Positions 6,836-48,957 of a DNA stretch of 64,000 bases are shown piece after piece. The position numbers and the translations under genes are program-made. Origin of the DNA: Acidobacteriota bacterium (lineage in GTDB: Bacteria; Acidobacteriota; Holophagae; Holophagales; Holophagaceae); NCBI GenBank assembly GCA_016195985.1, contig JACPYP010000016.1, forward strand, positions 372,001 to 436,000. The letters are read 5' to 3'. The notes under the pieces are model-generated. The model was not told the origin of the DNA. It was given only the letters and a program-made list of their open reading frames with translations, and made no database searches. How positions within the stretch are numbered: position 1 is the first letter of the stretch; every line of letters starts with the position of its first letter.

Positions 6836-6900
6836 GGAGACTCCCTGAGAGGTTGGAGGTTCATGGGGGCGCGGACCGCCCGGGGTTTTGCCGCGGCCGC

Positions 6901-11751: not shown

Positions 11752-11830
11752 TGGGATTCTCCAATCGAACACGGCTTGCGATCCTGGGAACGGCATTCCA
11801 GCGGCCATGATCGCGCAAAAAGTCGAAAAA

Positions 11831-14567: not shown

Positions 14568-14598
14568 CAAAACCGCCTTACGGAGGGGAGATGGGGAT

Positions 14599-26376: not shown

Positions 26377-26462
26377 GGGCACCTTGTCATCCCGCCGGAG
26401 GGGCGGGTTCAAAGAGAGATGACGGGAAGGGCGCAGGGCCCTCCCCGCCATTTTGAGGCCAG

Positions 26463-32518: not shown

Positions 32519-33205
32519 TCAGGGCAGAGGCTCGCAGAGAGGGAGGGAGGGCCGGACCGGAATCAGGTCGGCCAATGCTTGGGGAGTGTCCACCAGGGCA
32601 TCGAAGCCCAGGGGTTCGAGTTCGGAGCGGGAATGGGTGCCCCAGGTCACGCCGACGGCGCGAATCCCGGCGTTCCGGGCCGTTTCCAGATCGGCGGAAC
32701 TGTCGCCCACGTAGACCGCCCGGCCCGGGGAGATGGCGCCCAGGGCGGAGAGGAGCCCCCTGGGATCGGGCTTGGGCGCGGGCATGTCGTCCTCGCCCAC
32801 CATCGCGGCGAAGCTGTCCGCTACGCCGAGGCGGTGGAGGATGGTGCGGATGAAGGCGCCACGGCTGTTGCTGACGACTCCCAGGCGGAAGCCCCGGCCC
32901 GCGAGGGTTTCCAGGGCCTCCCGCACGCCCGGATAGAGCTCCGCGAGATCGGCGTGGTGCAGGGCCAGCTGGCTGTACCGGCGGGCCATGTTCTCCTGGG
33001 CCGCGGGGTCGCCGATGCCCGCGAGCAGGCCCAGCCGCCGGGCCGTGGGATGGACCATGCCCGCCACGATCCGGCCGGGGTCCGCCTTCCCCAGGCCCCG
33101 CTCCCACAGGACGCCGTTGGAGGCGGAAATCACGGCGGGAATGGAGTCGACGAGGGTGCCGTCGTGATCGAACATCACCGCGTCGATGGGGCCGAGAGGG
33201 CTCAA
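32519..33205 (-). CDS. HAD family phosphatase (phosphoglycolate-phosphatase-like)
   Basis: Cytoplasmic haloacid-dehalogenase-type hydrolase. Motif [12 protein letters not shown] (D13/D15), motif II VVSNSRG, motif III Lys in APKPDPRG and motif [14 protein letters not shown] are all present, with an alpha-helical cap after motif I. It starts at TTG, with GGAG six bases before. It lies between the symporter and the transaldolase in the arabinose operon, with gaps of about 20-25 bp. It may clear phosphorylated pentose side products; the exact substrate is unknown. Confidence 0.82.
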
Positions 33206-33226: not shown

Positions 33227-35059
33227 TCAGCCGCGGAAATACAGGTAGGCGGCGGCGATCAGGGCCACGACCAGGGCGGATACCGCCACGTCGCGGCGGC
33301 TCCAGGAACTGCGGCTTTCAGCGCGCTGCTCGCTCGTGATGGTGCTGAACGTGAGGCCCACGAGCTGGGCCTCGTCCGGCGCCTTGGTGAGGTAGCTGAC
33401 CACCACCATGGCGATGGCGCTGACCACGAGGATGATCATGCTGAAGTACTGGAAGTAGATGTGATTGATGATCCAGAGCCAGGAGCCGGGAGCGTAGGTG
33501 AATCCGTGGATCAGGGCTCCGGGCGTGTCCACCGCCAGGCGGAACAGGCCGAGGATGAAGCCGACGGTGAGGGCGGCCAGGCAGCCCTTCGCGTTCAGCC
33601 GCTTCCAGTAGATGCCCAGGAAGAACACCACGAAGATGGGCGGCGCCAGGTAGCCCTGGACCGACTGCAGGTAGTCGTAGAGGCCGTGGGAGCCTTTGAT
33701 GACCGGGATCCAGAGGATGCCGATGAGCACCATGACCATGGTGGCGGTGCGGCCCATCCGCACCAGGGAGATCTGGCTGGCCTGGGGCCGCATCTTGGCG
33801 TAGCAGTCGAGGGTGAACAGGGTGGAGCTGGCGTTGAAGACGCCGGCCAGGGAGCTCATCAGGGCGGCGATGAGGCCCGCGACCACCAGGCCGCGGACGC
33901 CGACCGGAAGCACGTAGGCGACCATGGAGGGGAAGGCGTATTGCAGCTGCGAGCGCACGGGCTGTCCGGACGCGTCGACCATGCCATTGAGGGCCGGGAC
34001 GCTGCCGCTCTTGGCGAGGGCAAAGCAGATCATGCCGGGAATGATGAAGATGAACACCGGAAGCAGCTTGAGCAGGGCGGCGAAGATGGAGCCGCGGCGG
34101 GCGTGCTGCTCATTCTTGGCGCCGAGGGTGCGCTGGACGATGTACTGGCAGGTGCACCAGTACCACAAGCCGATGACCGGGGCGCAGATGATCATGCCCA
34201 GCCAGGGATAGTGGCCGTTGAAATACCAGGCCATGCGCGTGACCACGCCTGCCTGGTTGGCCTCGATGACGGGCGCCCAGGTGCTTTGAACGCCGTGGGG
34301 CACCATGGGCTTCCAGAGGTTGAACATGTCCGCCGGGAGGGCGTTGTGGAGCGCCTGCCAGCCGCCGAGCTTGTGGAGGCCCAGCACGGTGACGAGCAGG
34401 GACCCGAGGATGAGCACCACCACCTGGATGGTCTCGGTGTAGGCCACGGCGCGCATGCCGCCGATCACGGTGTAGAGGCCGGTGAGCAGCAGCAGCGTGA
34501 GGCAGCCCACCCAGAAGCTGTCGAGGTAGATGAAGCCCAGGTTCAGGTGCATTTCAGGGAGCAGGAAGCCGAAGACCACGCCACCGGCGAAAATGCCGAC
34601 GGCCACCTTGGAGAGCACGTACAGCACCAGGGAGACGATGGAGAGCATCCAGCGCGAAGCCGGGGAGAAGCGTTTCTCCAGGAACTCCGGCATGGTGTAG
34701 ACCCGGCTCCGCATGTAGAACGGGACCATTACCCAGGCCAGGACCAGGAGGCACCAGGCATGCAGCTCGTAATGGGCCATGGCCACGCCGTCCGTGGCTC
34801 CGGATCCGGCCAGGCCCACCACGTGCTCGGAGCCGATGTTGGAGGCGAAGATGGAAGCGCCGATGATCCACCAGCTGAGGTTCCGGCCCGCCAGGAAGTA
34901 GTCGTCCGTGGTCTCGCGGTTTTTCCGGATCACCCACCAGGACACGGCGAGGAGGACACTGAAGTAGAGGCCGATCACCAGCCAGTCGAAAGTCTGAAGG
35001 GCCGACCGCGACTGAGGCAGGGCCTGGGTCGGATCGCCTGTGAGGAGGGTGAGGAACAT
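33227..35059 (-). CDS. Sodium/solute symporter (SSS family), probable arabinose importer
   Basis: A 610-residue inner-membrane protein with about 14-15 hydrophobic segments. SSS signatures are visible: YFLAGRNLSWWIIGASIFASNIGSE near the N-terminus and the central GMRAVAYTETIQ. The length and the C-terminal extra helix match the SglT-like glucose/galactose branch. It lies 45 bp behind araA and before the HAD and transaldolase genes in one operon, so L-arabinose is the likely substrate. Start ATG with AAGGG. Confidence 0.87.
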   Translation of the reverse strand: MFLTLLTGDPTQALPQSRSALQTFDWLVIGLYFSVLLAVSWWVIRKNRETTDDYFLAGRNLSWWIIGASIFASNIGSEHVVGLAGSGATDGVAMAHYELHAWCLLVLAWVMVPFYMRSRVYTMPEFLEKRFSPASRWMLSIVSLVLYVLSKVAVGIFAGGVVFGFLLPEMHLNLGFIYLDSFWVGCLTLLLLTGLYTVIGGMRAVAYTETIQVVVLILGSLLVTVLGLHKLGGWQALHNALPADMFNLWKPMVPHGVQSTWAPVIEANQAGVVTRMAWYFNGHYPWLGMIICAPVIGLWYWCTCQYIVQRTLGAKNEQHARRGSIFAALLKLLPVFIFIIPGMICFALAKSGSVPALNGMVDASGQPVRSQLQYAFPSMVAYVLPVGVRGLVVAGLIAALMSSLAGVFNASSTLFTLDCYAKMRPQASQISLVRMGRTATMVMVLIGILWIPVIKGSHGLYDYLQSVQGYLAPPIFVVFFLGIYWKRLNAKGCLAALTVGFILGLFRLAVDTPGALIHGFTYAPGSWLWIINHIYFQYFSMIILVVSAIAMVVVSYLTKAPDEAQLVGLTFSTITSEQRAESRSSWSRRDVAVSALVVALIAAAYLYFRG

Positions 35060-35104: not shown

Positions 35105-36598
35105 CTAGCGGTAGGAAGCCTCGTTCCAGCGGAGCTGGTTCTTGAAGTCGGGAATGCGGGTGTTCTCATCGATGCAGAGGTACTCGATGCCGGCAATGGC
35201 CGTGAAGTCCTCGATGTGGGGCGCGAGGGCGGCCTGGCTGAAGGCCGCGTGGTGGGCGCCCCCGGCGTGGATCCAGGCGGCGGCCGCCACCTTCAGGCTC
35301 GGCCGGGGCACCCACAGGGCGCGGGCCACCGGGAGGCGGGGCAGGGCGTGCTGAGGTTCCACCACGTCCAGGACGCTGACGATCATGCGGAAGCGGTTGC
35401 CCATGTCGATGAGAGAAGCGTTCACGGCGGGACCAGAGGGAGTGCCAAAGACCAGGCGCGGCGGATCATCCTTGCCGCCGATGCCCAGGCGGTGGATCTC
35501 CAGGGAGGGGCGGGGCGTGTCCGCGATGGAAGCGCAGACCTCTAGCATATGGGCGCCGAGCACCTGGGGGGCCGAAGGATCGAGGTGGTAGGTGTAGTCC
35601 TCCATGAAGGAGGTGCCCCCGGGCAGGCCGGAGCCCATCACCTTCATGGCCCGGACCAGGGCGGCCGTCTTCCAGTCGCCTTCGGCGCCGAAGCCGTAGC
35701 CGTCGGCCATGAGACGCTGCACGGCCAGGCCGGGAAGCTGGCTGAGGCCGTGTAGATCCTCGAAATTCGTGGTGAAGCCCTTGAACCCCCCCTCGATCAG
35801 GAAGGCGCGCAGGCCGAGCTCGATCCGGGCGGATTCCTGAAGCGAGGCCCGCCGCTCGCCCCCGGGGCGGAGGCTGGGCATGAGCTCGTACCGGTCGTCG
35901 AATTCACGGCAGAGGCGCTCCACCTCGGCATCGCTCACGGACTTGACCGCGGCCGCGAGGCTGCCCATGGCGTGGGCCGTCACCGAATAGCCGAGCCGGA
36001 TCTGGGCTTCCACCTTGTCGCCTTCGGTCACGGCCACTTCGCGCATGTTGTCACCGAACCTGACGATCCGGGCGCCCTGGGCGTCCTGCCAGGCGCAGGC
36101 TGCACGGGCCCACACGCCGACTTCTTCCTGGACGCCGGCTTCCGTCCAGTGCCCGACCACCACCTTCCGCTCCTTGCGCATGCGGGTGGCGATGAAGCCG
36201 AATTCCCGGTCGCCGTGGGCGGCCTGGTTCAGGTTCATGAAATCCATGTCGATGGTGGCCCATGGCACGTCCCGGTTGTGCTGGGTGTGCAGGTGCAGGA
36301 AAGGCTTCCGCAGCACGGACAGCCCCCGGATCCACATCTTGGCCGGGGAGAAGGTGTGCATCCAAAGCACCAGGCCCGCGCAGGCCGGGGCGCAGTTGGC
36401 CTCCTCGCACAGGGCGGTGATGGCCTCGGGCGTGGTGAGCACGGATTTGAAAACCACCTTGGCGGGGATGCTGGGCGAGGCGTCCAGGGCCCGGGCGATC
36501 TCCTGGGAGTTGGCGGCCACCTTCTCGAGGGTGCCGGGCCCGTAGAGGTGCTGGCTTCCGGTGACGAACCAGATTTCCTGCTGCTTCAAGTCGATCAT
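35105..36598 (-). CDS. araA: L-arabinose isomerase
   Basis: Converts L-arabinose to L-ribulose with Mn2+. The 497-residue protein begins with the family opening ([21 protein letters not shown]) and keeps [32 protein letters not shown], and the C-terminal [10 protein letters not shown] histidine region over full length. The ATG at 36598 carries AGGAG and overlaps the araB stop by 4 bases (ATGA), showing translational coupling. It belongs to the operon araD-araB-araA-symporter-HAD-transaldolase under the LacI-type operator at 39080. Confidence 0.95.
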
Positions 36599-38292
36599 GC
36601 TTGCTCCTGGCGTTGGCACTGCTGGTCCCGGATGGTGAGGAGTTCCTTCATGACGTTGGCCATGGAGCCGTTCCAGGACGGAGTCCCGAAACCGTCATGG
36701 AGTTGGCGGTAGAGCTGGTAGAGGCGGCGGTAGACCGCGTGGGCCTCGGGGTTGGGCTGGTAGACCTTGCGGATGCCGCACAGGCGTTCCTGGGCCTTCC
36801 GGATGGAGGGGAAGGCGCCCGCGGCCATGGCCCCGAACAAGGCGGCCCCGAGGGCGGGCGTCTGCTCGCTGCGGGCGATCTTCATGGGCCTTCCGGTGAT
36901 GTCGGCGTAGGTCTGCATGAGGAAGGCGTTCTTGGCCGCCAGTCCGCCGCAGTTCACCACCTCGCGGATGGGCACGCCGTATTCCTCGATGCGCTCGATG
37001 ATGGTGAGGGCCCCGAAGGCGGTGGCCTCGATGAGGGCCCGGTAGATCTCGTGGGGCTGGGTGTGGAGGGTCTGTCCCAGGAGGAGGCCCGTCAGGCGGG
37101 CATCCACCAGGACCGTGCGGTTCCCGTTGTTCCAGTCCAGGGCCAGGAGGCCGCTCTCGCCGGGTGCCTGCTGCGAGGCCAGCTCTCCGAGGGTTTTGAA
37201 CTTCGCGTCGAGGTCGGCGCCCAGGCTGTCGGGGGCGAGGTTGCGCACGAACCACAGGAACAGGTCGCCCACGGCGGATTGGCCGGCTTCGATGCCGAAG
37301 TAGCCGGGGACCACCGAGCCATCCACGATGCCGCAGACCCCGGGGATGTCCGCCAGGGGCTGCCCGTTGGGCCAGACCATGATGTCGCAGGTGGACGTGC
37401 CCATGATCTTCACCAGGCTGCCTTCGGCCACGCCCGCGCCCACCGCTCCCATGTGGGCGTCAAAGGCGCCTGCCGCCACGGCGACCCCGGCCCGGAGGCC
37501 CAGGCGGGCGGCCCATTCAGGGCAGAGGCCGCCCGCCAGGTGGTCGGCGGGGTGCGCTTCTGAAAACAGGCGGGAGCGGAGGGTGGCCAGGGCCGGGTCG
37601 AGCTGGCCGAGGAAATCCGCGTCCGGCAGGCCGCCCCACTTCGGATTGAACATGGCCTTGTGCCCGGCGGAACAGATGCCCCGCACGATCTTGTCCGGCC
37701 TCTGGTTGCCGGTGAGCACGGCGGGAAGCCAGTCGCAGATCTCCACCCAGGTGGCGGCGGCATCGAACACATCAGGCGCCGCGCGGCGGCAGTGCAGGAT
37801 CTTGCTCCAGAACCATTCAGAGCTGTAGGTCCCGCCGACCTGCGCGAGGTACTGCGGGCGGATCCTGGCCGCGAGTTCCGTGATCTGGCCCGCCTCCTCG
37901 AAGGAGGTGTGGTCCCGCCAGAGCCAGACGCAGGCGGCGGGGTTCTCCTTGAACCGCGGATCGAGGCTGAGGGGATTCCCCTGGTCATCGATGGGCATGG
38001 GGCTGCTGCCCGTGGTGTCGATGCCGAGCCCCACCACGTAGGCCGCGTCGAAGGCGGGATCGCGGTCCTGGGCCTGGGCCAGCACGGAACGCACAGTCGT
38101 TTCGATGCCCAGCAGGTAGTCCGAGGCGTTCTGCCTGGCGAGGTGCGGATCCTTGGGGTGGGTGATGATGCCGGCCTGTCCCGAGGGGTAGTTGAACACC
38201 TCGGTGGCCTTTTCTTCGCCTGTGTGGAGGTCCACCAGCAGGGCGCGGCAGCTGTTGGTGCCGAAATCCAGTCCGATTGCGTAGATGGTCAT
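36595..38292 (-). CDS. araB: Ribulokinase (FGGY family)
   Basis: ATP-dependent phosphorylation of L-ribulose to L-ribulose 5-phosphate. The 565-residue FGGY kinase has the N-terminal phosphate loop [15 protein letters not shown], the bacterial ribulokinase motif [12 protein letters not shown], and the C-terminal [18 protein letters not shown] with [11 protein letters not shown]. It sits 7 bp behind araD and overlaps araA by 4 bp. Confidence 0.95.
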
Positions 38293-38299: not shown

Positions 38300-38995
38300 T
38301 CATTCCTGGCCGTAGTAGGCGTTCTTGCCGTGTTTCCGCTGGAAGTGCTTCTGCACGAGCGTGGCTTTCAGGGGCACGGCGTCCGGGTTGATCTGCAGCG
38401 TCAGCAGGGCCATCCGGGCGATCTCCTCCAGCACGCCGCTGTTCAGGACGGCCTGCATGGGCGAGGATCCCCAGGTGAAGGGGCCGTGCCCCCCCACGAG
38501 GATCATTTCGGGAGATGGTCCGGGCAGGGCGGCCAGGGTTTCGAGGATGAGCTTTCCGGTCTCTTCCTCGTAGTCGCCCTGGATGGCTGAGTCTGAAAGG
38601 AGGGGGGTCACGGGGACCGGCGCGGGGAACTGGTCCGCGTGTGTGGTCCCGAAGAGGGGGATGGCGCGCTGGGCCTGGGCCCAGGCCACGGCATGGGTGG
38701 AGTGCGTGTGGGCGACGCCCCGGATGCCGGGGATGTTCTTGAACAGGACCGCGTGGGTTTTGGTGTCGGAAGAGGGGCGCAGGGCGCCCTCCACCACCCG
38801 GCCGTCCAGATCCACCACGACCATGTCGCCGGGCCGCATCCGGGAGTAGGGCACGCCGCTCGGCTTGATGGCGAAAACGCCGGCGGCCGGGTCGAAGGCG
38901 CTGACATTCCCGAAGGTCTGTATGGCCAGGCCGTCATGCTTGAGCTGCATGTTGGCGTTCCATGCGGCGATCTTCAGGTCTTTATACGCACTCAT
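38300..38995 (-). CDS. araD: L-ribulose-5-phosphate 4-epimerase
   Basis: Class II aldolase-fold zinc enzyme converting L-ribulose 5-phosphate to D-xylulose 5-phosphate. The 231-residue protein shows the metal ligands H96 and H98 (AHTHSTH) and H170 (GGHGPF), the phosphate-binding GNVS near residue 30, and SSDTKTH. It is first in the arabinose operon, preceded by a promoter and tandem LacI-type operators 85-140 bp upstream. Confidence 0.94.
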   Translation of the reverse strand: MSAYKDLKIAAWNANMQLKHDGLAIQTFGNVSAFDPAAGVFAIKPSGVPYSRMRPGDMVVVDLDGRVVEGALRPSSDTKTHAVLFKNIPGIRGVAHTHSTHAVAWAQAQRAIPLFGTTHADQFPAPVPVTPLLSDSAIQGDYEEETGKLILETLAALPGPSPEMILVGGHGPFTWGSSPMQAVLNSGVLEEIARMALLTLQINPDAVPLKATLVQKHFQRKHGKNAYYGQE

Positions 38996-39249: not shown

Positions 39250-39507
39250 TTACCCGAACTTGATCTTCATGGCGAGGATGGTGCCCGCGAGGAGCAGGGT
39301 GGCGCCGTTGGCCAGGTAGACCGGGGCGCTTTGGATGAGGACGCCGTAGATGGTCCAGAGGAGGATGCCCAGCGTAAACAGGGAGTACATCACCAGAGAG
39401 ATGCCCGCGGTCTGGCGCTCCCGGATGATCTTGATGGTCTGCGGGACGAAGCTCAGGGTGGTGCACACCGCCGCCGCAGAGCCCAACAGGATTTCGACGT
39501 GTGACAA
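39250..39507 (-). CDS. SemiSWEET-type sugar transporter (PQ-loop/MtN3)
   Basis: A small three-helix membrane protein of about 85 residues that works as a dimer to pass sugars by facilitated diffusion. The PQ motif lies in TTLSFVPQTIKIIRERQT, followed by GISLVMYSLFTLGILLW and a last helix ending MKIKFG. I prefer a TTG start (39507) because GGAGG sits five bases before it and the product then has family length; an ATG at 39519 is the alternative and lacks a ribosome site. It lies upstream of the ara promoter on the same strand. A sugar-efflux or uptake role in arabinose use is possible, but the gene is outside the operator-controlled unit. Confidence 0.8.
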   Translation of the reverse strand: MSHVEILLGSAAAVCTTLSFVPQTIKIIRERQTAGISLVMYSLFTLGILLWTIYGVLIQSAPVYLANGATLLLAGTILAMKIKFG

Positions 39508-39708
39508 GCCAGCCTCCATCTCGTCGACCATACACGAACCGGGGGGCGCCACGGATGAACACGGATGAACACCGGTAAAAACATCCGGCATCCATCCCCC
39601 TGCATTCCGGCTGAGAAAACCTTTCCCGCGCACCGGTCCGGCTCAGGTTGAAACGGTCCCTATGAGCGCACGAAGATGCCCTGAGCTTTGTTCGAATGCC
39701 AAACGGCT

Positions 39709-41280
39709 TCAGTGGCGGTCGAACGCGCCGTCGCGGAGCCTCCAGAGGCCGAGCGGATTCCCGGTTTGCAGGGCCATGGGCAGCAGGTTCTCAGGCGCGT
39801 CCTGGTAGCAGATGGGCCGTGCCCAGCGGGCGATGGCGCGGGTTCCCACGCTGGTGGACTGGGGCGCGCTGGTGGCGGGCCAGGGGCCTCCGTGCACCAT
39901 GGCGTGGCCGACTTCCACTCCCGTGGGAACGCCGTTGAAAAGCACCCGTCCCGCCAGGCGGCGCAGCTCCGGCAGCAGGTCCGCGGCCAGGGCTTCGTCC
40001 CCGGGTTCCATCCACAGGGTGGCCGTGAGCTGGGCGGGGAATGCGGCGATCACCTTCCGGCGTTCGGCCTCGTCTGCGCAGGCCACGAGCAGCGTGGCGG
40101 GCCCGAAGACTTCCTCCATCAGGTCCGGGCGCCGGAGCAGATCCTGGGCCGTGGTTTCCAGGAGCGCGGGCGCGCCGAAACAGCCCTGGGAGGGACACGA
40201 AGGAAAGACGGGGTTCGCGCCTTCAGCTTGGTGCCGTTCCAGACCTCGGCGGTAGGCGAGGGCGAGGCCTTCGCCCAGCATCGGAGCGGGGGGGGCGGCG
40301 CTCATCGCTTCCGCCAGGCCACTGCGCAGGGACCGGAAACCGGGGCCCTGGACGGCGAGGACGATCCCGGGGCAGGTGCAGAATTGGCCCACGCCGTTGA
40401 GCACCGAGGCCGCCAGCGTCTGGCCCAGGCGGGAGCCCAGCGCCGCCAGGGCCCCGGGAAGCACCACCACGGGATTCGCCGCTCCCATTTCCGCGAAGAC
40501 GGGAATGGGAGCGGGCCGGTTCCGGGCCAGTTCCAGAAGGGCGCTTCCTCCGCGGAACGAACCGGTGAAGCCCACCGCGCGGATGGCCGGGTGTCCGACC
40601 AGGCGCCGGGCCACGTCGTGGCCCGCGTCGAAGAGCAGGCTGAAAGCCCCGGAGGGCAGGCCCTCGCGGAGCAGGGCGGCCTGCACCACCTGGGCCACCT
40701 GTTCGCTGGTGCCGGGATTCAGCGGGTGGGCCTTGGCCACCACCGGGCATCCGGCGGCGAGGGCCGAGGCGGTGTCCCCTCCCACGGCGCCGAAGGCCAG
40801 GGGAAAGTTGGACGCGCCGAAGACGGCCACGGGTCCCAGCGGCTGCAGCATCGAGCGCAGATCGGGCTTGGGCAGCGGCGTCCGGCCGGGGTGTCCTGAA
40901 TCCAAGCGCGCCTCCACCCAGGACCCCTCCGCCGCGACATCGGCGAAGAGGCGCAGCTGGCCGCAGGTGCGGGCCAGTTCCCCCCGGACCCGGGGTTCCG
41001 GCAGGGCGGTCTCGGCCATCACCCGGGGCACCAACTCCCCGGCGGCCTCTTCCAGCCCCGCGGCAATGCGGCACAGAAGGGCCGACCGCGCCTCGCGGGG
41101 GGCGGCCTCCATCGCCGGCGCGGCCGCCTCGGCCAGTTCCACGGCGCGGTCCACCTCGGCGCCGGAGGCGGAATGGAAGGGCGGATCCAGCCGCGCTCCG
41201 GTGGCGGGGTTCTGGGCGTGGAAGGTGGCGCCGCCGGGGTGCCCGGGCGCAGGGCCGATGAGAGAGAAGCCGTGGATCAT
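39709..41280 (-). CDS. 2-oxoglutarate (alpha-ketoglutaric) semialdehyde dehydrogenase
   Basis: NAD(P)-dependent aldehyde dehydrogenase that oxidises 2-oxoglutarate semialdehyde to 2-oxoglutarate, the last step of hydroxyproline breakdown. The 523-residue protein shows the ALDH catalytic set: Asn in FGASNFPLAFG (about N158), Glu in VFAEMGAANP (about E264) and nucleophilic Cys in GQFCTCPG (about C301). The length and these motif variants fit the branch associated with hydroxyproline or sugar-acid pathways. It is last in the hydroxyproline operon, 58 bp after the deaminase gene. The end product enters the citric acid cycle directly. Confidence 0.88.
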   Translation of the reverse strand: MIHGFSLIGPAPGHPGGATFHAQNPATGARLDPPFHSASGAEVDRAVELAEAAAPAMEAAPREARSALLCRIAAGLEEAAGELVPRVMAETALPEPRVRGELARTCGQLRLFADVAAEGSWVEARLDSGHPGRTPLPKPDLRSMLQPLGPVAVFGASNFPLAFGAVGGDTASALAAGCPVVAKAHPLNPGTSEQVAQVVQAALLREGLPSGAFSLLFDAGHDVARRLVGHPAIRAVGFTGSFRGGSALLELARNRPAPIPVFAEMGAANPVVVLPGALAALGSRLGQTLAASVLNGVGQFCTCPGIVLAVQGPGFRSLRSGLAEAMSAAPPAPMLGEGLALAYRRGLERHQAEGANPVFPSCPSQGCFGAPALLETTAQDLLRRPDLMEEVFGPATLLVACADEAERRKVIAAFPAQLTATLWMEPGDEALAADLLPELRRLAGRVLFNGVPTGVEVGHAMVHGGPWPATSAPQSTSVGTRAIARWARPICYQDAPENLLPMALQTGNPLGLWRLRDGAFDRH

Positions 41281-41338
41281 GGGATGCCGCCAGGAAAGGG
41301 AGAACGCGGAAGTGGAGGTGAAGGTTCAGGCCAGGGCT

Positions 41339-42226
41339 CTAGGGCCGGTGGGCCAGGGCGTAAGCGAGCTCCGCCAGCGCCGTCTCCCGCTCCGCCCCCG
41401 CCAGCACGGCCCGGGGGGCCCGCATGCGTTCGCTGCCCCAGCCCATTTCCTGCTGCACGAGCTTGATGAGCTGCACGAACTTCGGCACCGTGTCCATGCG
41501 GAGCAGGGGCAGGAACCAGGCGTAGAGGCGGAAGGCTTCGTCGCGCTTGCCGGCCAGGGCCAGGTTCAGGAGATCCACGCTTTCCTTGGGGAAGGCGTTC
41601 ACCAGGCCCGCGATCCAGAAGGAGGCGCCCATGGCCACGCCCTCCACCAGGCAGTCGTCGACGCCGACGCCCAGGGCGAGCCGATCGCCGATGAGGGCGC
41701 GGATGCCCGCGATGCGGCGGGCGTCGGTGCTGCTCTCCTTCACCCCCAGCAGGTTGGGATGGAGGGCCGCCAGTTCGGCGATGTTCTCGGGAACGAAGTC
41801 CACTTTGTAAGCCACCGGGTTGTTGTAGAGCAGGCAGGGCAGGGCGGTCGCGCGGATGACGGCGCTCATGTGCGCGCGCATCTCCGCCCAGTCGCCCACG
41901 TAGACGTAGGGGGGCAGCACCATCAGCCCTTTCGCCCCGGCCGCCTCGGCCGCCTGGGCCAGGCGCACCGCCTCGGTGGTGGACAGCGCCGCGATGCCGG
42001 GGATCACGGGCCGGCCATCGGCCGCCTTCACGCAGGTCCGGATCACGGCCACCCTTTCCTCGAAGTCCAGGGTGGCGCCTTCGCCCAGCGATCCGCAGGG
42101 AACGAGGCCGCTGCAGCCTTGGCTCAGCATCCAGCGGGCGTGGGCCTCGAGGGCCTCGTGGTCCACGGATCCGTCGGCGCGGAAAGGGGTGGTGATGGCG
42201 GGCAGGACGCCCTGGAAGGGATTCAT
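41339..42226 (-). CDS. Probable 1-pyrroline-4-hydroxy-2-carboxylate deaminase (DHDPS family)
   Basis: A 295-residue (beta/alpha)8 enzyme of the dihydrodipicolinate synthase superfamily. The Schiff-base Lys lies in LGVKESSTD (about K163) and the active-site Tyr in CLLYNNPV (about Y134); GSLGEG takes the place of the usual GTTGE loop. Between a D-hydroxyproline dehydrogenase and a 2-oxoglutarate semialdehyde dehydrogenase the expected reaction is deamination/dehydration of pyrroline-4-hydroxy-2-carboxylate to 2-oxoglutarate semialdehyde. The frame runs far upstream, but this ATG has GGAG and overlaps the stop of the preceding subunit gene by 4 bases. A true DapA role is unlikely in this place. 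Confidence 0.85.
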   Translation of the reverse strand: MNPFQGVLPAITTPFRADGSVDHEALEAHARWMLSQGCSGLVPCGSLGEGATLDFEERVAVIRTCVKAADGRPVIPGIAALSTTEAVRLAQAAEAAGAKGLMVLPPYVYVGDWAEMRAHMSAVIRATALPCLLYNNPVAYKVDFVPENIAELAALHPNLLGVKESSTDARRIAGIRALIGDRLALGVGVDDCLVEGVAMGASFWIAGLVNAFPKESVDLLNLALAGKRDEAFRLYAWFLPLLRMDTVPKFVQLIKLVQQEMGWGSERMRAPRAVLAGAERETALAELAYALAHRP

Positions 42227-43521
42227 GGTGGCTCCGGTGGGGAGAGAAGGCCGACGAGGTCGGCGAAGGTCGTGGGGGCGAGCGGTTGGCGGGGGCCGCC
42301 GGGGCGCCAGCCGAAAAGGAATTCCGTGGCGGGGCCGCAGGTCCGCCCTTGGCACCGGCCCATGCCGCAGCGGCCGTGAAGGCGGGCCTCGCGGCCGCTG
42401 GCGAAGGACTGGAGGTCGCCCACGGACACGTCCTCGCAGCGGCAGAGGAGGGTGTCGGGGGTGGCGATGCGCCGCAGTTCCGGGCGGAGGGCGAAGGTCG
42501 AGGCGAGGGCGGCGGCCCAGGCCCTTCCTTTGCGGACCTCCGCGCCCAGCAGGCGGGCCTCCGCTTCGCGGCCGGCGGCCCAGAGCCCCGCGACGCGGCC
42601 TTCGGCCAGAGCCTTGTCCACGCCGCCGATGCCCGTGGGTTCGCCCGCCGCGAAAACGCCGGCCACGGAGGTGCGCTGCCCTTCGTCCACGACGACGCCA
42701 TCGGAGGTGGCCGCGCAGCCCAACAGGCCCGGCAGCTCCAGATCCGGCACCAACCCGTATCCCACCCCCAGGAGATCCGCTTCCAGGGCCACCGGCCCTC
42801 GCGGCGTCTGGAGATGAACGATGCGGAGCTGCCCGTCCCCCTCGGCCCGGGTGACCCAGGTGTCCGGCCTCAGGGGCAGCCCCAGGGCCGAGAGCCCCTG
42901 CAGCAGCAGGCCCGGATGCCGGAGCAGGCCAGGGAGGAGCCCGGGCAGCGAGGCCGTCGGCGCCTGCTCTGCCACGGCGAGGACGCGGGCCCCCCGGCGG
43001 CGCAGGTGCGTGGCCACGGCCAGGAGCAGAGGCCCGCTGCCGCCCAGGACGATCCGTTTCCCGCGCACATCGAGCCCTCCCTTCTCCAGGGCCTGCAGGC
43101 CCCCGGCCCCGCACACGCCCGGCAGGGTCCAGCCGGGGAAGGGCAGGAAGCGGTCGCGGGCCCCGGTGGCCAGGACCAGCCGGTCGTAGCCCAGCTGCGC
43201 GGCCCCCGCCGGACCCGTCACGCCGAGCCAGCCCGGAGCCGGAGCCGTCACGACCCGTTGGGACATCTGAAGGCGGACGCCGCTTTGGCGGAGCGCGGCG
43301 AACCAGGACCGCGCGGCGGGATACACGGGGGCGTCCCACTGTCCGCGCCAGATCTGGCCGCCGGGTTCGGGCTGGGCGTCCACCAGGGTCACGGCCATGC
43401 CGGCCTTCGCGGCGCTGACGGCGGCCGCGATCCCCGCCGGACCCGCGCCCACGACGAGGAGGCGCCCAGTGAGAGGGCCAGTGAGAGGCCCAGTGAAACG
43501 CCCAGGGAGATGCTCAGTCAC
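42223..43521 (-). CDS. D-hydroxyproline dehydrogenase, FAD/NAD-type subunit with C-terminal Fe-S motif
   Basis: A flavoprotein of the HcnB/OoxA-like type. The N-terminal Rossmann motif LLVVGAGPAGIAAAVSAAKAG binds FAD, a second nucleotide motif is IVLGGSGPLLLAVA, and GVFAAGEPTGIGG closes the FAD site. Near the C-terminus are the cysteines of a BFD-like [2Fe-2S] site (LLCRCEDVS, RCGMGRCQGRTC). It starts at GTG overlapping the end of the ferredoxin-like gene by 8 bases. Together with the neighbouring small Fe-S protein and the DAO-type subunit it forms the three-part dehydrogenase known from Pseudomonas aeruginosa LhpBEF. It should oxidise cis-4-hydroxy-D-proline and pass electrons onward. Confidence 0.83.
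   Translation of the reverse strand: MTEHLPGRFTGPLTGPLTGRLLVVGAGPAGIAAAVSAAKAGMAVTLVDAQPEPGGQIWRGQWDAPVYPAARSWFAALRQSGVRLQMSQRVVTAPAPGWLGVTGPAGAAQLGYDRLVLATGARDRFLPFPGWTLPGVCGAGGLQALEKGGLDVRGKRIVLGGSGPLLLAVATHLRRRGARVLAVAEQAPTASLPGLLPGLLRHPGLLLQGLSALGLPLRPDTWVTRAEGDGQLRIVHLQTPRGPVALEADLLGVGYGLVPDLELPGLLGCAATSDGVVVDEGQRTSVAGVFAAGEPTGIGGVDKALAEGRVAGLWAAGREAEARLLGAEVRKGRAWAAALASTFALRPELRRIATPDTLLCRCEDVSVGDLQSFASGREARLHGRCGMGRCQGRTCGPATEFLFGWRPGGPRQPLAPTTFADLVGLLSPPEPP
43466..43513. repeat. Four 12-bp tandem units at the start of the FAD subunit gene
   Basis: CCAGTGAGAGGG and three near-copies lie directly downstream of the GTG start. The gene then encodes RFTGPLTGPLTG ahead of the FAD motif. 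The unit length keeps frame, so strains may differ in repeat number. Confidence 0.6.
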
Positions 43522-43741
43522 GGCGCACCTGCATGCCTTCCAGGGCCACGGCCAGACAGGCCAGGGTTTCCCGCCCATCCACCCGCACGCGGCATTCGAA
43601 GCACTGCCCGATGCCGCAGAGGGGTCCCCGCGGGGCGCCGGAAAGATCCCGGCAGGCCACGGGCGGCAGGCCCAGGGCCGAGGTGAGCCGCGCGCCTTCG
43701 GCCACCTGCACCGGAAGGCCGTCCACCCACACCCTAGGCAC
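43514..43741 (-). CDS. [2Fe-2S] ferredoxin-like subunit of D-hydroxyproline dehydrogenase
   Basis: A 75-residue protein with four cysteines in plant-type ferredoxin spacing: CGIGQCFEC (about C42, C47, C50) and ACLA (about C62). The fold matches the small HcnA-like subunit that links the two flavin subunits. The gene overlaps both neighbours by 8 bases. Such tight packing suits subunits made in equal amounts. Confidence 0.83.
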   Translation of the reverse strand: MPRVWVDGLPVQVAEGARLTSALGLPPVACRDLSGAPRGPLCGIGQCFECRVRVDGRETLACLAVALEGMQVRRD

Positions 43742-44852
43742 GGGCCACCTCCGGGAAGCGGCTGGGCAGGTAGGGCGCCGGATCCAGGGGCGGGGCCTGG
43801 CCCAGGATCCAAGCCGTCAGCAGCTCCGCCGTGGCCGGGGCCGTGGTGATGCCCAGCCCCTCGTGGCCGCAGGCCAGGAACACTCCCGGCCGGTGGGGCC
43901 AGGGACCGATCAGGGGGCGGTGGTCCGGCGTCGTGGGGCGGAAGCCCGTCCAGGCCCGCAGGACGGGCACCTCCGCCAGGCCGGGCACATAGGCCAGGGC
44001 CCGGCGGATCATGCGCTGGAGCAGGTGGGGGCGGAGATCGGGCGATTCATCTCCGAACTGGCGGCTCGATCCCAGCAGAAGCTGGCCGTTGGGGCGGGGC
44101 TGCAGGTTGAAGGCCACGCTGTCCTCCCGCGAGGCGTGGGCGGATTTCAGGTAGCCCAGCTCCACCAGCTGGTGCCTGAGGAAGCCGGGGCGGCGGTCCG
44201 TGATGGCCAGGTGCCCCTTCCGTTTCACCAGGGGCAGGTCCGGCAGCAGGCGCTTGGAGTCGCTCCCCGCGGCGATCACCACGCGGCCCGCCGGAAGGCG
44301 GGTGCCATCGTCCAGGCGCAGGCCTTCCGGTTCGAGGCTTGCCACGCGGCGGCCGCACAGGAGCTCGGCCCCGGCGCGGGCCGCGGCCTCCGCCAGCAGC
44401 CGGGCCCCGGCGGGCGGATAGACCACCGCGTCTCCGGGCACGAGCATGCCCCCGGCGAGGCCGGTGGCCAGGCAGGGTTCGAGGCCGCGCAGCGCGGCGG
44501 CGTCCAGCAGCTCCGCCCGGATTCCGGCCGCGCGGTAGGTTTCGCAGCGCGGGCGGACCAGCTCCATCTCCTCATCGTCGGCGGCCACCCAGAGGGTGCC
44601 GCAGGTCGTCATGTCCAGGGCCGCTCCCAGCTCCGGCGCCAGCTCCTTCCAGCGCTCCAGTCCCAGGCGGCACAGCGCCAGCTCCTCCGGCGAACCGTCC
44701 AGGGCCACCAGGTGTCCCATGGCCGCGCCGGTGGCGCCCAGGCCCCAGCCCTCGGCCTCCAGCAGGCCCACGCGGCAGCCCTGCCGCGCGAGGGCCAGGG
44801 CGCAGGCGCCGCCCACGATGCCTCCGCCCACGATCAGGACATCAGGCGCCAC
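43734..44852 (-). CDS. D-hydroxyproline dehydrogenase, DAO-type FAD catalytic subunit
   Basis: A 372-residue D-amino-acid-oxidase-fold flavoprotein (HcnC/SoxB-like). FAD-binding motif DVLIVGGGIVGGACALALARQG at the N-terminus, VVIAAGSDS in the middle and GHEGLGITTAPAT near the C-terminus. It begins at GTG, overlapping the stop of the epimerase gene by 11 bases, and overlaps the ferredoxin gene by 8. As the substrate-oxidising subunit it should act on cis-4-hydroxy-D-proline; acceptance of D-proline is possible. Confidence 0.84.
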   Translation of the reverse strand: MAPDVLIVGGGIVGGACALALARQGCRVGLLEAEGWGLGATGAAMGHLVALDGSPEELALCRLGLERWKELAPELGAALDMTTCGTLWVAADDEEMELVRPRCETYRAAGIRAELLDAAALRGLEPCLATGLAGGMLVPGDAVVYPPAGARLLAEAAARAGAELLCGRRVASLEPEGLRLDDGTRLPAGRVVIAAGSDSKRLLPDLPLVKRKGHLAITDRRPGFLRHQLVELGYLKSAHASREDSVAFNLQPRPNGQLLLGSSRQFGDESPDLRPHLLQRMIRRALAYVPGLAEVPVLRAWTGFRPTTPDHRPLIGPWPHRPGVFLACGHEGLGITTAPATAELLTAWILGQAPPLDPAPYLPSRFPEVARA

Positions 44853-45795
44853 GGAGGAAATCCGCGGTGAATGGATCCTCGGGATCGAGGATCAGGGCCG
44901 CCTCTGCGGTCATATGGGCCCGCCCCTGGATGTGCGGCAGCAGGACGCCCTCCCGCCGGGCCATCCACCCCTTGAACACGGATCCGATGAGGCTTTCCTG
45001 ACGCCAGACCTGGCCCTCCGCCAGCTTTCCCTCCTCCACCAGGCAGGCGAGCTTGGCGGAGGTCCCCGTTCCGCAGGGGCTGCGATCCCACTCCAGCCCG
45101 GGGCAGAGGACGAAGTTCCTGCCCTGGTTGGCCGGATCGGCGGCGGGGCCCGTGAGCTCCACGTGATCGACCTCGAAGCCGGCCTGGCGGCTCAGGCCCT
45201 GGCGCTCCACTTCCCGCAGGATGGCGGAGGCGGCTGTCATCAGCGCGGGCAGCTGCTCCCGGCGCAATTCGAGGCCGTGGTCCTCCACGAGGAAGAACCC
45301 GTTGCCGCCCCAGGCCACGTCTCCGTGCACCAGGCCCAGCCCCTGCACCTGCAGGGGGACGCGGCGGAGGCAGCGGCGGGCGGGCACGTTGACCACCACG
45401 ACGCTTCCGTCTTCGAGCAGCTCTGCCTCCACCACGCCCACGGGCGTGTCGATGCGGAGCCGCCCCGGCCGGATCCTGCCCACATGCCGCAGCGTCTCCA
45501 CCACGCCCATGATGCCGTGGCCGCACATGCCGAGGACGCCCACGTTGTTGAAGAAGATCACGCCGAGGTCGCAGCCTGGCGCGTGGGGCGGCACCACCAG
45601 GGCCCCCACCACCACCTCTGACGCCCGGGGCTCGCAAACCAAAGTCCGGCGCCAGGCGGCGTGGCCGCTCAGCAGCTTCGCCCGGCGCTCGCCCAGGGGG
45701 CCCGCGCCGAGATCAGGGCCGCCCTCCAGCACCACCCGGGTGGGCTCGCCGCCCGTATGGCTGTCGAAAACGTGGATTCGGGTCGCAGGTGCCAA
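44842..45795 (-). CDS. 4-hydroxyproline 2-epimerase (proline racemase family)
   Basis: Epimerises trans-4-hydroxy-L-proline to cis-4-hydroxy-D-proline without cofactor. Both catalytic cysteines are visible: C91 in GMCGHGIMG and C241 in SPCGTGTSAK. The N-terminal RIHVFDSHTGGEPTR is the family start. I chose the TTG at 45795, with AAGGA six bases before and family length (317 residues); a GTG at 45816 is an alternative. It is the first gene of the hydroxyproline operon and is divergent to the PAS-AraC regulator. Proline racemase and trans-3-hydroxyproline dehydratase share the fold, but two cysteines and the context favour the epimerase. Confidence 0.88.
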   Translation of the reverse strand: MAPATRIHVFDSHTGGEPTRVVLEGGPDLGAGPLGERRAKLLSGHAAWRRTLVCEPRASEVVVGALVVPPHAPGCDLGVIFFNNVGVLGMCGHGIMGVVETLRHVGRIRPGRLRIDTPVGVVEAELLEDGSVVVVNVPARRCLRRVPLQVQGLGLVHGDVAWGGNGFFLVEDHGLELRREQLPALMTAASAILREVERQGLSRQAGFEVDHVELTGPAADPANQGRNFVLCPGLEWDRSPCGTGTSAKLACLVEEGKLAEGQVWRQESLIGSVFKGWMARREGVLLPHIQGRAHMTAEAALILDPEDPFTADFLRGA

Positions 45796-45831
45796 TGGAT
45801 GTCCTTGTTTGAACACAATCTTCCGCCGGGC

Positions 45832-45843
45832 ACCCGCGCGGGT
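45832..45843. promoter_or_regulatory. Perfect palindrome in the divergent hydroxyproline/AraC control region
   Basis: ACCCGCGCGGGT lies in the roughly 150-bp region between the epimerase start and the divergent AraC-type gene. It could be a protein-binding site or a hairpin in the epimerase leader; the sequence alone does not decide. Confidence 0.35.
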
Positions 45844-45965
45844 CTTGTGCGATTCCCCCCTTGCGGATGCCGAAAGAGCACAAGGCCGGGCCAGGAGCCC
45901 GTCCAAGTCATGGGTGGGGGCTGCGCTGGGGCGCCAGCCGAGGGAGGCAAGGTAAACTGCGAGCC

Positions 45966-46715
45966 ATGCCGCCCTTCCGCGAATCGAGCCTGGATGCCCT
46001 GTTGAGTCAGGCGGGGAGCCTCGATTTCGTGGAAGCGCTCTTCGACCGCCTCCACCAGGCGGTCTTCACCGTGAAGGACACGGCGGGGCGCTACCTGGCC
46101 ATGAGCCAGAGCGGCGTCGAGCGCTGCGGCCTGGCCTCGAAGCAGGCGGCCATGGGAAAGACGGTGTTCGAGCTGTGGCCCCCGGAGATGGCCAAGCGCT
46201 ATGCGGATCAGGACGCCCGGCTGCTGAGGACCGGAAGCCCCATCGTCGACGCGCTGGACCTCACCCTCTATCCGGACCGCCGCCCGGGCTGGTGCCTCAC
46301 CCAGAAGGTTCCCGTCAGGGACCACGGCGGCCGCGTGATCGCCCTGGCCTGCCTCAGCACGGACCTGCCCGAGCCCAGCCGCGCCGGCCTCATCGACGCC
46401 CCCTTCGCGGCGGCGGTGGACCACATCCACGGCCACTTCGCCGAGGGGCTCCGCATGGAACAGCTGGCCGCCATGGCGGGGCTGTCCATGGTCCAGTTCG
46501 AACGGCGCATCAAGAAGGTCTTCCACCTCAGCCCGGGCCAGTACGTCATGAAAGTCCGCATCCAGGCGGCGGCCGACGCCCTGTCCGACACGGAACTTCC
46601 GATCTCTGCCATCGCCGTGGACACGGGCTTCTGCGACCAGGCGGCGCTGACACGCCAGTTCAAGCAGGTCACCGGCCTGAGTCCCGCCGCCTACCGGAAG
46701 TGGGCCCGGGGCTGA
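45966..46715 (+). CDS. AraC family regulator with N-terminal PAS domain
   Basis: A 249-residue transcription factor. A PAS-like sensor covers about 18-130 ([30 protein letters not shown]), then two AraC helix-turn-helix motifs (about 145-249; [23 protein letters not shown] and [20 protein letters not shown]). It is divergent to the hydroxyproline operon, as the AraC regulator LhpR is in Pseudomonas, so it is probably the hydroxyproline-responsive activator. A PAS sensor in place of a cupin-like domain is less usual. The ATG is at family length; the ribosome site is weak. Confidence 0.85.
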
Positions 46716-46977: not shown

Positions 46978-48957
46978 ATGAACAACCTCGACAAGCGCTG
47001 CATCGACACGATCCGCTGTCTGGCCATGGATGCCGTGCAGAAGGCGAACAGCGGCCACCCCGGCACCCCCATGGCCCAGGCACCGGCGGCCTACGCCCTG
47101 TGGGCCCAGGTCATGAAACACAATCCCGCCAACCCCCATTGGCCCGACCGCGACCGCTTCGTGCTGTCCTGCGGCCACGCTTCCATGCTCATCTACAGCC
47201 TGCTCTTCCTGGCGGGCTACGGACTGGAGCTGGATGACCTGAAAGCCTTCCGCCAGTGGGGCTCCAGGACCCCCGGCCATCCGGAATTCGGCCACACTGC
47301 CGGCATCGAAACCACCACGGGCCCCCTGGGGCAGGGCATCGGCAACGCGGTAGGCATGGCCATCGCCGAGCGCTGGCTGGCCGGCCGTTTCAACCGCCCG
47401 GGCCACGACATCGTGAACCACCGCACCTTCGCCTTCGCGGGCGACGGCTGCCTGATGGAAGGCGTCGCCTACGAGGCCGCCAGCCTCGCGGGGCATCTGG
47501 GCCTGGGAAAGCTCACCGTGCTTTGGGACAACAACAGGATCACCATCGAGGGACGGACGGACCTGGCTTGGAGCGAGAACGTCCCGGGCCGCTTCGAGGC
47601 CATGGGCTGGCGGGTGCTGAAAGTGGCTGATGGCGAAGATCTGGAAGCGCTGCTGAAGGCCTTCCGGGAACCCGCCTGCGGCAGGCCCACCCTCATTGAT
47701 TGCACCACGGTCATCGGGTTTCCGGCTCCCAGCAAGAAGGACACCCACCATGCCCACGGCGCTCCCTTGGGCGACGCGGAAATCCGCGCCACCAAGGAGA
47801 TCCTGGGCTTCGATCCCGATGTCCAGTTCCCCGTTCCAGCGGAGGCCCTCGCCCACTGGCGCGGCCAGTGCGGCCCCCGCGGAGCTGCCGCCGAGGCCGA
47901 GTGGAGGGCCCGTTTCGAGGCCTACCGGCAGGCCTTCCCGGAACTGGCGGCCGAGTACGAGGCGTTTATGAAGGGAGAGCTGCCGCCGGAATGGCGGAAG
48001 GCCCTGCCCACCTTCTCCACCAGTGACTCATACGCCACGCGCGAGGCCAGCGGCAAGGTTCTCAACGCGCTGGCGGCGGCCATCCCCAACCTCATCGGCG
48101 GCAGCGCAGACCTCGCCCCTTCCAACAACACGCACCTGAAGGATGGCGGCGATTTCGGGCCCCGGGAGAATGGGCGGAACTTCCATTTCGGCATCCGCGA
48201 ACACGCCATGGGCGCCGTCCTGAACGGCATGAGCCTTCATGGCGGCCTGAAGCCTTTTAGCGCCACCTTCTTCATCTTCTGCGACTACATGCGGCCCACG
48301 GCGCGCCTGGCCTCGCTGATGAAGATTCCCGTGACCTACGTGTGGACGCACGATTCCATCGGTGTGGGCGAGGACGGCCCCACCCACCAGCCCATCGAGC
48401 AGATGATGAGCATGCGCCTCATCCCCGGGTTCACCATGATCCGTCCCGCGGACGCCAACGAGACCGCCCAGGCCTGGGCCATCGCGGTGGCGAAGAAGGA
48501 CGGACCCGTGGGGCTGGCGCTCACCCGCCAAAAACTGCCCACGCTGGATGCCACGAAGGCCGAAGGTGCCGCCAAGGGCGCCTACATTCTCGAGGAGGCC
48601 AGCGCGGCGCCCCGGCTCCTGCTTCTGGCTTCCGGATCCGAAGTCCACCTGGCGGTGCGGGCCCGCAAGGCGCTCGAAGCGGAAGGCGTGCCCACCCGCG
48701 TGGTGTCCATGCCCTGCTGGGAGCTCTTCGAGGCCCAGAGCGCCGCCTACAGGGCGGAGGTCCTGCCGGAGGCCGTCACCGCGAGGGTTTCCATCGAGGC
48801 AGGCGTCACCACCGGCTGGCAGCGCTACACCGGCGCCAAGGGCGCTTGCATCGGGCTGGACCACTTCGGGGCCAGCGCCCCGGCGGACATCCTCTTCGAG
48901 CAGTTCGGCCTCACGGTGGACCATGTGGTGAAGGCCGCCAGGGCCCTGCTCGCCTGA
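46978..48957 (+). CDS. tkt: Transketolase
   Basis: Thiamine-diphosphate enzyme moving two-carbon units in the non-oxidative pentose-phosphate pathway. The 659-residue protein has the N-terminal NSGHPGTPM, the ThDP motif beginning [10 protein letters not shown] and ending about 30 residues later with DNN, and the catalytic Glu in FGIREHAMG; the C-terminal domain is complete. The frame is open upstream, but this ATG has AGGAG and gives the normal N-terminus. The tandem operators upstream suggest it is induced with the arabinose operon, where it takes the xylulose 5-phosphate made by AraD. Confidence 0.94.

Follow-up and report, generated by a model that had tools for sequence, protein, structure and literature searches.

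A hydroxyproline operon beside arabinofuranosidase, prolyl peptidase and arabinose genes in an Acidobacteriota genome, a probable locus for the use of plant hydroxyproline-rich glycoproteins

The hydroxyproline (Hyp) operon described in this article lies in a 64,000-nucleotide stretch of an Acidobacteriota genome (contig JACPYP010000016.1), the whole of which is called the window; G numbers denote the genomes and L numbers the loci with which it was compared. Its closest described relative is the PA1252-1269 cluster of Pseudomonas aeruginosa, for which the available excerpts of PMC5144071 describe the same epimerase family, the same pathway and a three-subunit dehydrogenase of alpha4beta4gamma4 type, with LhpC as the alpha, LhpB as the beta and LhpD as the gamma subunit. 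The window operon differs from that cluster in being a compact set of six genes that includes neither an ABC transporter nor aconitase X nor a second gene of proline-racemase type, and also in being embedded in an arabinofuranosidase/arabinose locus. Such glycosidases are found in the hypBA1/hypBA2/hypAA systems of Bifidobacterium longum and Xanthomonas, which likewise possess enzymes of glycoside hydrolase (GH) families GH127/GH146 and an alpha-L-arabinofuranosidase; a broken prolyl oligopeptidase gene adjoins the Xanthomonas Hyp-arabinoside system, and the excerpts of PMC6085000 and PMC10850190 describe the removal or use of the sugar while leaving Hyp catabolic genes unmentioned. Degradation of hydroxyproline-rich glycoproteins (HRGPs) has also been predicted for Latescibacteria from single-cell genomes (PMC4454575), with GH127 read as extensin degradation alongside the import of amino acids and oligopeptides, but this is a gene list and not a locus, and the excerpt makes no mention of a Hyp catabolic pathway. 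From comparison of sequences, it is probable that the window operon forms the final stage of a locus dismantling plant HRGPs, most likely extensin, a reading adopted because the gene set is close to what eating extensin needs.

The six genes are arranged head to tail along the (-) strand between 45795 and 39709. They are listed here in gene order, followed by the genes on either side of them.

44842..45795, - strand: 4-hydroxyproline 2-epimerase, LhpA type (PF05544, 280.7 bits)
43734..44852, - strand: DAO-type FAD subunit of a three-part dehydrogenase, LhpB type, beta in PMC5144071 (PF01266, 247 bits)
43514..43741, - strand: small 2Fe-2S subunit of 75 aa, gamma, LhpD type (PF13510, 49.4 bits)
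42223..43521, - strand: Pyr_redox_2 FAD/NAD-type subunit with cysteine-rich C-terminal part, alpha, LhpC type (PF07992, 93.8 bits)
41339..42226, - strand: DHDPS-type protein, predicted deaminase (PF00701, 189.8 bits)
39709..41280, - strand: predicted 2-oxoglutarate semialdehyde dehydrogenase (PF00171, 149.6 bits)
45966..46715, + strand: divergent PAS-AraC regulator, LhpR-like (PF08448 and PF12833)
39250..39510, - strand: PQ-loop/SemiSWEET-like small transporter gene, 86-aa stretch, start approximate (PF04193, 44.8 bits)

The Pfam families in gene order are Pro_racemase, DAO, Fer2_4, Pyr_redox_2, DHDPS and Aldedh, and the epimerase gene begins with a TTG codon at 45795 with AAGGA upstream. An earlier reading of this DNA, made without database searches and referred to here as the sequence-only reading, had described a tightly overlapped operon; this is true at each junction within the first five genes, where the overlaps from the epimerase onward are 11, 8, 8 and 4 bases, and the semialdehyde dehydrogenase is indeed the next gene, after a gap of 58 bases. 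It was also correct that no transporter lies within the operon, the nearest being the SemiSWEET-like stretch 198 bases downstream, and that all four steps from trans-4-hydroxy-L-proline to 2-oxoglutarate are present by homology, with the last two enzymes named from family and context only. The range it gave, 39709-46715, takes in the divergent regulator on the + strand (45966-46715) as well. Its comparison with the Pseudomonas lhp order stands for the first four genes. These are shared by Pseudomonas locus L086, which also carries a homolog of the PAS-AraC regulator; there the regulator follows, and neither a deaminase nor a semialdehyde dehydrogenase gave a match within 10 kb.

In the pathway predicted for these genes, the 2-epimerase would convert trans-4-hydroxy-L-proline to cis-4-hydroxy-D-proline, which the three-subunit FAD/Fe-S dehydrogenase would oxidise to pyrroline-4-hydroxy-2-carboxylate; the deaminase would then yield 2-oxoglutarate semialdehyde, to be oxidised to 2-oxoglutarate by the NAD(P)-dependent semialdehyde dehydrogenase. 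The epimerase is the sole proline-racemase-family match in the genome, its nearest solved structures are 4k7x, 4q60 and 2azp (the latter being PA1268), and it keeps both catalytic cysteines, Cys91 and Cys241, in MCGH and DRSPCGTG motifs. According to the available part of PMC4364671, hydroxyproline epimerases are separated from proline racemases by three sites, with a residue other than Phe at site 1, His at site 4 and Cys or Tyr at site 5. These sites were located by motif spacing and by alignment to PA1268 and 4j9w, and are occupied by Val63, His211 and Cys231, the pattern of hydroxyproline epimerases and not of proline racemases. The 4-hydroxyproline epimerase models of NCBIfam are the best for this protein yet score under their cut-offs (368.7 of 442 and 368.1 of 450 bits), compared with 160 of 556 bits for proline racemase and 160 bits or less for the trans-3-hydroxyproline dehydratase models. 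The missed cut-off is a naming threshold and not a functional feature, and the name epimerase carries that reservation.

The DAO-type, small 2Fe-2S and Pyr_redox_2 subunits are encoded together, as a heterotrimeric cis-4-hydroxy-D-proline dehydrogenase requires. Homologs of the DAO subunit with about 46-57% identity adjoin the epimerase in many Hyp loci, and the Pyr_redox_2 subunit also has syntenic homologs in such loci. For the deaminase, no dedicated deaminase model was found among the NCBIfam matches (DapA reaches 157.4 of 206 bits), and the semialdehyde dehydrogenase scores 74.7 of 770 bits with NF042993 and 89.5 of 750 bits with NF052305. The latter protein has its best PDB matches in 1eyy and 3v4c, and homologs with 85% identity in G020 and 56% in L064; we take type III 2-oxoglutarate semialdehyde dehydrogenase to resemble 1eyy. 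Naming of the deaminase and the aldehyde dehydrogenase by PDB similarity was dropped, as DHDPS and ALDH relatives are too many and too unspecific, and the functions proposed for these two proteins are assigned by family and operon context only.

The identical six-gene order was found in G020, G053, G160 and G257. It is also complete in three (L064, L103 and L106) of 80 named Hyp loci, these being the loci kept among the matches listed from the epimerase scan. The epimerase, FAD, Fe-S and FAD/NAD genes are colinear in 39 of the 80, and in 11 of these 39 the deaminase (43-65% identity) comes next after the dehydrogenase. Because the same six genes recur in the same order in other genomes the layout is not due to chance, and at the level of sequence homology the six genes are confirmed as a genuine Hyp catabolic operon of a known type, that of Pseudomonas lhp, with Hyp catabolism as the best supported reading of its predicted products. 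In the phylum sample an epimerase match at E 1e-60 was obtained in 44 of 396 genomes. Within the genus, the regulator is present in 3 of 47 genomes, namely G000 (the source of the window), G020 and G257, and a close epimerase is present in the same three (in a search without G422-G424), while G160, from another genus of the same family, also carries the operon. High G+C content was considered as a sign of recent transfer and rejected as not diagnostic, the window operon having 73.5% but those of G020, G160 and G257 having 68.4, 71.9 and 72.4%, respectively.

Between the regulator and the epimerase there is a symmetrical sequence that is likely to be the operator of the Hyp operon.

45844..45884: dyad CTTG-N6-TTC-N-GAA-N6-CAAG, candidate operator

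Each of the four loci of the family has a dyad of 40-41 bp at this position, with differing inner letters, and the pattern has a single match within the window. It is this conservation in four loci that suggests an operator and not the length of the arms, as the longest perfect arm in the region, of 7 bases, was matched in 92 of 300 shuffles and is unremarkable alone. A second dyad, CTTGT-N31-ACAAG, which has no inner TTC/GAA, is located far from the operon at 60797-60837. Homologs of the PAS-AraC regulator, with at least 220 aligned residues, were found in 19 of the 80 listed named loci, the best being 55% identical (L064). In G053, a more distant genome, the first gene of the operon locus encodes an XRE-cupin regulator (L015:10117-10689) instead of PAS-AraC, and L103 has a GntR-type regulator.

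All genes assigned between 4595 and 45795, a distance of about 41,000 bases, lie on the same (-) strand with the Hyp operon at one end. The sequence-only reading had overlooked the beta-arabinofuranosidase/arabinose locus that fills the stretch from the peptide transporter to the operon, whose genes are as follows.

38300..38995, - strand: araD, L-ribulose-5-phosphate 4-epimerase (NF006047, 309 bits, cut-off 257)
36595..38292, - strand: araB, ribulokinase (NF003154, 674 bits, cut-off 428)
35105..36619, - strand: araA, L-arabinose isomerase (NF002795, 797 bits, cut-off 622)
33227..35059, - strand: sodium:solute symporter (SSF), by position probably for arabinose (PF00474, 273 bits)
32519..33205, - strand: HAD-family phosphatase (PF13419, 110 bits)
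31846..32493, - strand: fructose-6-phosphate aldolase/transaldolase (TIGR00875, 308 bits, cut-off 246)
27173..30598, - strand: TonB-dependent receptor-like protein (PF13620, 55 bits; PF07715, 32 bits)
24370..26451, - strand: GH51-type alpha-L-arabinofuranosidase (PF22848, 201 bits; PF06964, 108 bits)
22013..24373, - strand: GH146-type beta-L-arabinofuranosidase of the GH127 clan (PF07944, 367 bits)
19499..21982, - strand: GH127 beta-L-arabinofuranosidase-family enzyme (PF07944, 370 bits)
17875..19452, - strand: secreted putative zinc metallopeptidase, weak ATLF/M34-type, with HExxH (PF07737, 24.5 bits, below the cut-off of 27.4)
15352..17871, - strand: GH27/36-like (melibiase-type) enzyme with NPCBM domain (PF02065, 41.9 bits, cut-off 27; PF08305, 68 bits)
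11868..14570, - strand: DUF5695 protein, candidate glycosidase (PF18951, 165 bits)
10582..11808, - strand: aldose 1-epimerase (PF01263, 297 bits)
9464..10546, - strand: LacI-type regulator (PF00356 and PF13377)
8101..9375, - strand: POT di/tripeptide transporter (TIGR00924, 228.8 bits, cut-off 130.2)
6901..8091, - strand: M24 peptidase of Xaa-Pro type, without a visible signal peptide (PF00557, 161.5 bits)
4595..6952, - strand: dipeptidyl peptidase IV (DPP-IV)-type (S9) prolyl peptidase (PF00326, 141 bits; PF00930, 140 bits)
46978..48957, + strand: transketolase (TIGR00232, 881 bits, cut-off 682; scanned from 46975)

Past the operon the order is SemiSWEET-like gene, araD, araB, araA, SSF, HAD phosphatase, the transaldolase-type gene, one further frame and the TonB-receptor-like gene. 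This is followed by a tight run (gaps -4, 30, 46 and 3) of the GH51, GH146, GH127, ATLF/M34-like and melibiase-like genes, and, 781 bases on, by a run with gaps of 59, 35, 88, 9 and -52 made up of the DUF5695, aldose epimerase, LacI, POT, M24 and DPP-IV-type genes. One locus in the window holds genes for glycosidases, prolyl peptidases, peptide uptake and the catabolism of both arabinose and Hyp, which is the content expected of an HRGP utilisation locus. On the other strand, an M61-type peptidase gene (48983-50581, + strand) adjoins that of transketolase.

The protein encoded at 22013-24373 belongs to GH146, with 464 bits to PDB 5opj (BtGH146) against 82 for the best GH127 (4qjy) and with intact zinc motifs (ETC340-342 and CC409-410). 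Its neighbour at 19499-21982 (GH127) gave 691 bits with 6ex6 and 456 bits with 4qjy, and keeps the ETC and CC motifs. Signal-peptide-like stretches, read by eye, occur near the N-termini of the sugar enzymes and of the S9 peptidase, whose true start is probably an internal Met ahead of that stretch; none was seen in the M24 peptidase. A fold assignment for the DUF5695 protein was attempted, but its AlphaFold model (mean pLDDT 57) was too poor for a fold search.

With respect to transport, the sequence-only reading had explained the missing transporter by peptide import through the protein at 8101. This protein is a POT, and its gene runs tightly with those of the M24 (gap 9) and DPP-IV-type (next gap -52) peptidases, which lends support to its predicted role in Hyp uptake. 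We infer that the POT, with the adjoining M24 and DPP-IV-type peptidases, would be the most economical uptake route, sparing a dedicated Hyp transporter, and a glycoprotein locus would in turn account for the lack of a dedicated transporter in the Hyp operon. POT orthologs with 83-90% identity are found in the same 3 of 47 genus genomes as the operon's regulator; this co-occurrence was not retained as functional evidence, since araD shows the identical pattern and shared ancestry explains it equally well. The genome encodes a second POT with 65% identity. G160 possesses a POT relative at only 35%, and therefore its operon must be fed otherwise. A PutP-type proline symporter was also looked for in seven genomes, giving weak matches in four and none above the cut-off, the best being the SSF gene beside araA.

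Extensin contains Ser-Hyp4 repeats with alpha-galactose on Ser and one to five beta/alpha-linked arabinofuranoses on Hyp (PMC5371791, in part), and the GH146 enzymes XeHypBA1 and Bll4HypBA1 act on Hyp-bound arabinose according to excerpts of PMC10850190 and PMC6085000. What was observed here, namely which genes are present, their order and families, the catalytic motifs and the linkage in other genomes, suggests a scheme in which substrates, secretion, transport, regulation and joint action are predicted. Of the enzymes predicted to be secreted, the GH51 one would take off alpha-arabinose, those of GH127/GH146 beta-arabinose as far as the residue bound to Hyp, and the GH27-like one galactose, and the bared backbone would be cut by the DPP-IV-type and other secreted peptidases. 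Di- and tripeptides would then be imported by the POT, with the M24 peptidase freeing Hyp in the cytoplasm, while arabinose would enter by the SSF symporter and pass through AraABD, transaldolase and transketolase. Sensing may be carried out by the PAS-AraC protein for the Hyp branch and by LacI for the sugar branch.

The association of the two gene sets was examined by a search with PF07944 (E 1e-20) in the 44 epimerase-positive genomes, that of the window included, with random placement as the expectation; this null model ignores contig ends, and the genomes are related, the linked ones coming from three families (f1, f10 and f83). A GH127-clan gene was found at most 25 kb from the epimerase in 9 of the 44 genomes compared with 0.59 expected (P 1.6e-9). 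The distances are 4.3 kb in G283, 10.4 in G098, 11.7 in G182, 13.9 in G363, 18.8 in G313, 19.4 in G189, 20.1 in G276, 21.4 in G020 and 21.7 in G000, with G257 at 51.8 kb, so that at 55 kb there are 10 genomes against 1.28 expected. Counted per genus, linkage at 25 kb is seen in 5 of 32 genera (0.40 expected, P 2.7e-5). The window's own family was also removed, because that family had prompted the idea, leaving 7 genomes against 0.52 expected (P 3e-7). As a control, GH3 genes (PF00933) were placed in the same manner; among the matches listed they occur within 25 kb in 2 of 44 genomes (1.58 expected) and within 15 kb in none (0.96 expected). The control comprises at least 161 matches, the weaker of which are unplaced (for example the only match of G000), and its linked count is possibly low.

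The linked loci, whose genes were named by tblastn with the window proteins unless a Pfam family is given, have further features in common with the window. In G182 the epimerase, three dehydrogenase subunits, deaminase, GH27 (PF16499, 236 bits), DUF5695, DPP-IV (PF00326, PF00930) and GH146-type genes lie on one strand. In G283 the semialdehyde dehydrogenase precedes the epimerase and has a GH146-type gene (54% to that of the window) 0.3 kb upstream of it, and in G363 the operon is beside SSF, araB, araD, TonB-like, GH51-type (PF06964), GH127 and GalM genes. The operon of G098 has GH27 (PF16499), DPP-IV, GH146-type and GH51-type (PF06964) genes beside it and an amino acid permease (PF13520), which may stand in for the POT in loci of this type; similar permeases occur in the stretches of G276, G313 and G189. 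Of the 10 genomes whose GH127-clan gene is no farther than 55 kb from the epimerase, 8 have DPP-IV and 7 have DUF5695 in the stretches read. Linked genes in common with the window are also found in the named Acidobacteriota loci L074, L103 and L119: in L074 (Acidicapsa dinghuensis) a GH146-type gene adjoins the 2Fe-2S subunit, and in L103 a DUF5695 gene (47%) adjoins the semialdehyde dehydrogenase. Among the named loci, DPP-IV homologs occur in L055, L079, L094 and partly in L119. A 35% homolog of the ATLF/M34-like protein is encoded upstream of the epimerase in L063 (8889-9530, a Spartobacteria metagenome-assembled genome), between it and the deaminase. None of these genes was found at E 1e-15 in the other listed named loci, save weaker LacI, GalM and M24 matches in a few. 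On balance we lean, if cautiously, towards the view that at least three families of the phylum carry dedicated extensin-utilisation loci consuming both arabinose and the Hyp backbone, with a predicted GH146/GH27/DUF5695/DPP-IV front end and an LhpA-type back end.

The main alternative, which we regard as unlikely, is that the operon does no more than degrade Hyp that is free or comes from collagen, and that the genes for arabinose use and for the beta-arabinofuranosidases are there for pectic arabinan or rhamnogalacturonan I (RG-I), being near by accident or through a shared plant-litter diet. A number of observations speak for it and weigh against a glycoprotein locus. Arabinan, RG-I or RG-II are further substrates of GH127 and GH146 enzymes, the GH146 protein BT0349 is part of an RG-I locus (PMC10850190, in part), and the window GH127 protein matches a single NCBIfam model, that of aceric acid hydrolase, with half of the cut-off score. 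The PF07944 search covered epimerase-positive genomes, and hence measures linkage and not co-occurrence; 23 of the 44 had a match and 21 had no GH127-clan gene at all, G160 and G053 being among the latter. In 13 of the 23 no match lies within 55 kb of the epimerase, several of these being fragmented assemblies, the linked genomes represent only three families, and the G257 operon lies some 52 kb away from the GH127 genes, on the opposite side of the POT. At 55 kb the GH3 control, too, is slightly above expectation, with 6 of 44 genomes against 3.38 among the matches listed (P 0.11). By tblastn with the window proteins, just one of the 80 listed named loci (L074) has a GH127-clan gene within about 10 kb, the other 79 giving no match. 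No operator shared by sugar and Hyp genes was found in the window, where the dyad occurs only upstream of the epimerase, the dyad is absent from the sugar-gene stretches of G020 and G257, and the type of regulator differs between clades; as regards co-regulation, sugar, peptidase and Hyp genes form one co-directional run in G182, whereas the dyad of the window is found only at the Hyp operon. In L064 (6276-15589, a Rhodanobacteraceae metagenome-assembled genome) an M9 collagenase gene lies between the PAS-AraC gene (55% to that of the window) and the epimerase of a complete six-gene operon, an arrangement that can be seen as a collagen version of the glycoprotein idea. Set against a plain pathway are the linkage to GH127-clan genes, which greatly exceeds the random expectation at 25 kb, a distance at which GH3 is not enriched, and the presence of prolyl peptidases within the same gene runs. 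A search for M9 in eight genomes including that of the window gave no match, which argues weakly against collagen as the source since no control genome gave a match in that search either.

If a glycoprotein locus is accepted, its target might be arabinogalactan protein and not extensin, with the same Hyp backbone and other glycans. This is rather improbable: one GH146 enzyme does act on arabinogalactan proteins (PMC10850190, in part), but the alpha-galactosidases of GH27 type found within or next to the Hyp run suit the alpha-galactosyl serine of extensin, and no arabinogalactan-type galactanase was found among 31 Pfam-scanned window proteins, all encoded up to position 50581 (of the linked-run genes a minority was scanned). 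Lastly, it is very unlikely that the main substrate of the dehydrogenase is a different one, be it D-proline, an opine or some other D-amino acid, in cells not living on Hyp, since, even though related multi-subunit FAD enzymes have other substrates and the epimerase falls under the NCBIfam cut-offs, the epimerase site residues are of hydroxyproline type, the deaminase and semialdehyde dehydrogenase would make most sense after a 4-hydroxy substrate, judging by the published pathway, and in G257 a trans-3-hydroxyproline-dehydratase-like gene adjoins the operon.

Extensins are a store of Hyp in plant litter. The bacterial systems described in the available excerpts strip extensin of its arabinose, and the fate of the Hyp backbone is not treated there. 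Among the open-licence papers listed (titles and abstract openings) no paper was found that joins a Hyp catabolic operon to GH127/GH146 glycoprotein degradation. A locus joining the use of sugar and backbone makes this question testable in one organism, and offers GH146, DUF5695 and the prolyl peptidases as candidate enzymes. DUF5695 recurs beside Hyp operons in several genomes, and if the extensin reading is true it would be an unrecognised enzyme for HRGPs.

A further set of genes is present in G257, where an alanine-dehydrogenase-family gene and the trans-3-hydroxyproline-dehydratase-like gene lie directly downstream of the semialdehyde dehydrogenase (L125:1867-4048). In the dehydratase-like protein Thr replaces the second Cys (DRSPTG), and the alanine-dehydrogenase-family gene might encode a pyrroline-2-carboxylate reductase of an unexpected family.

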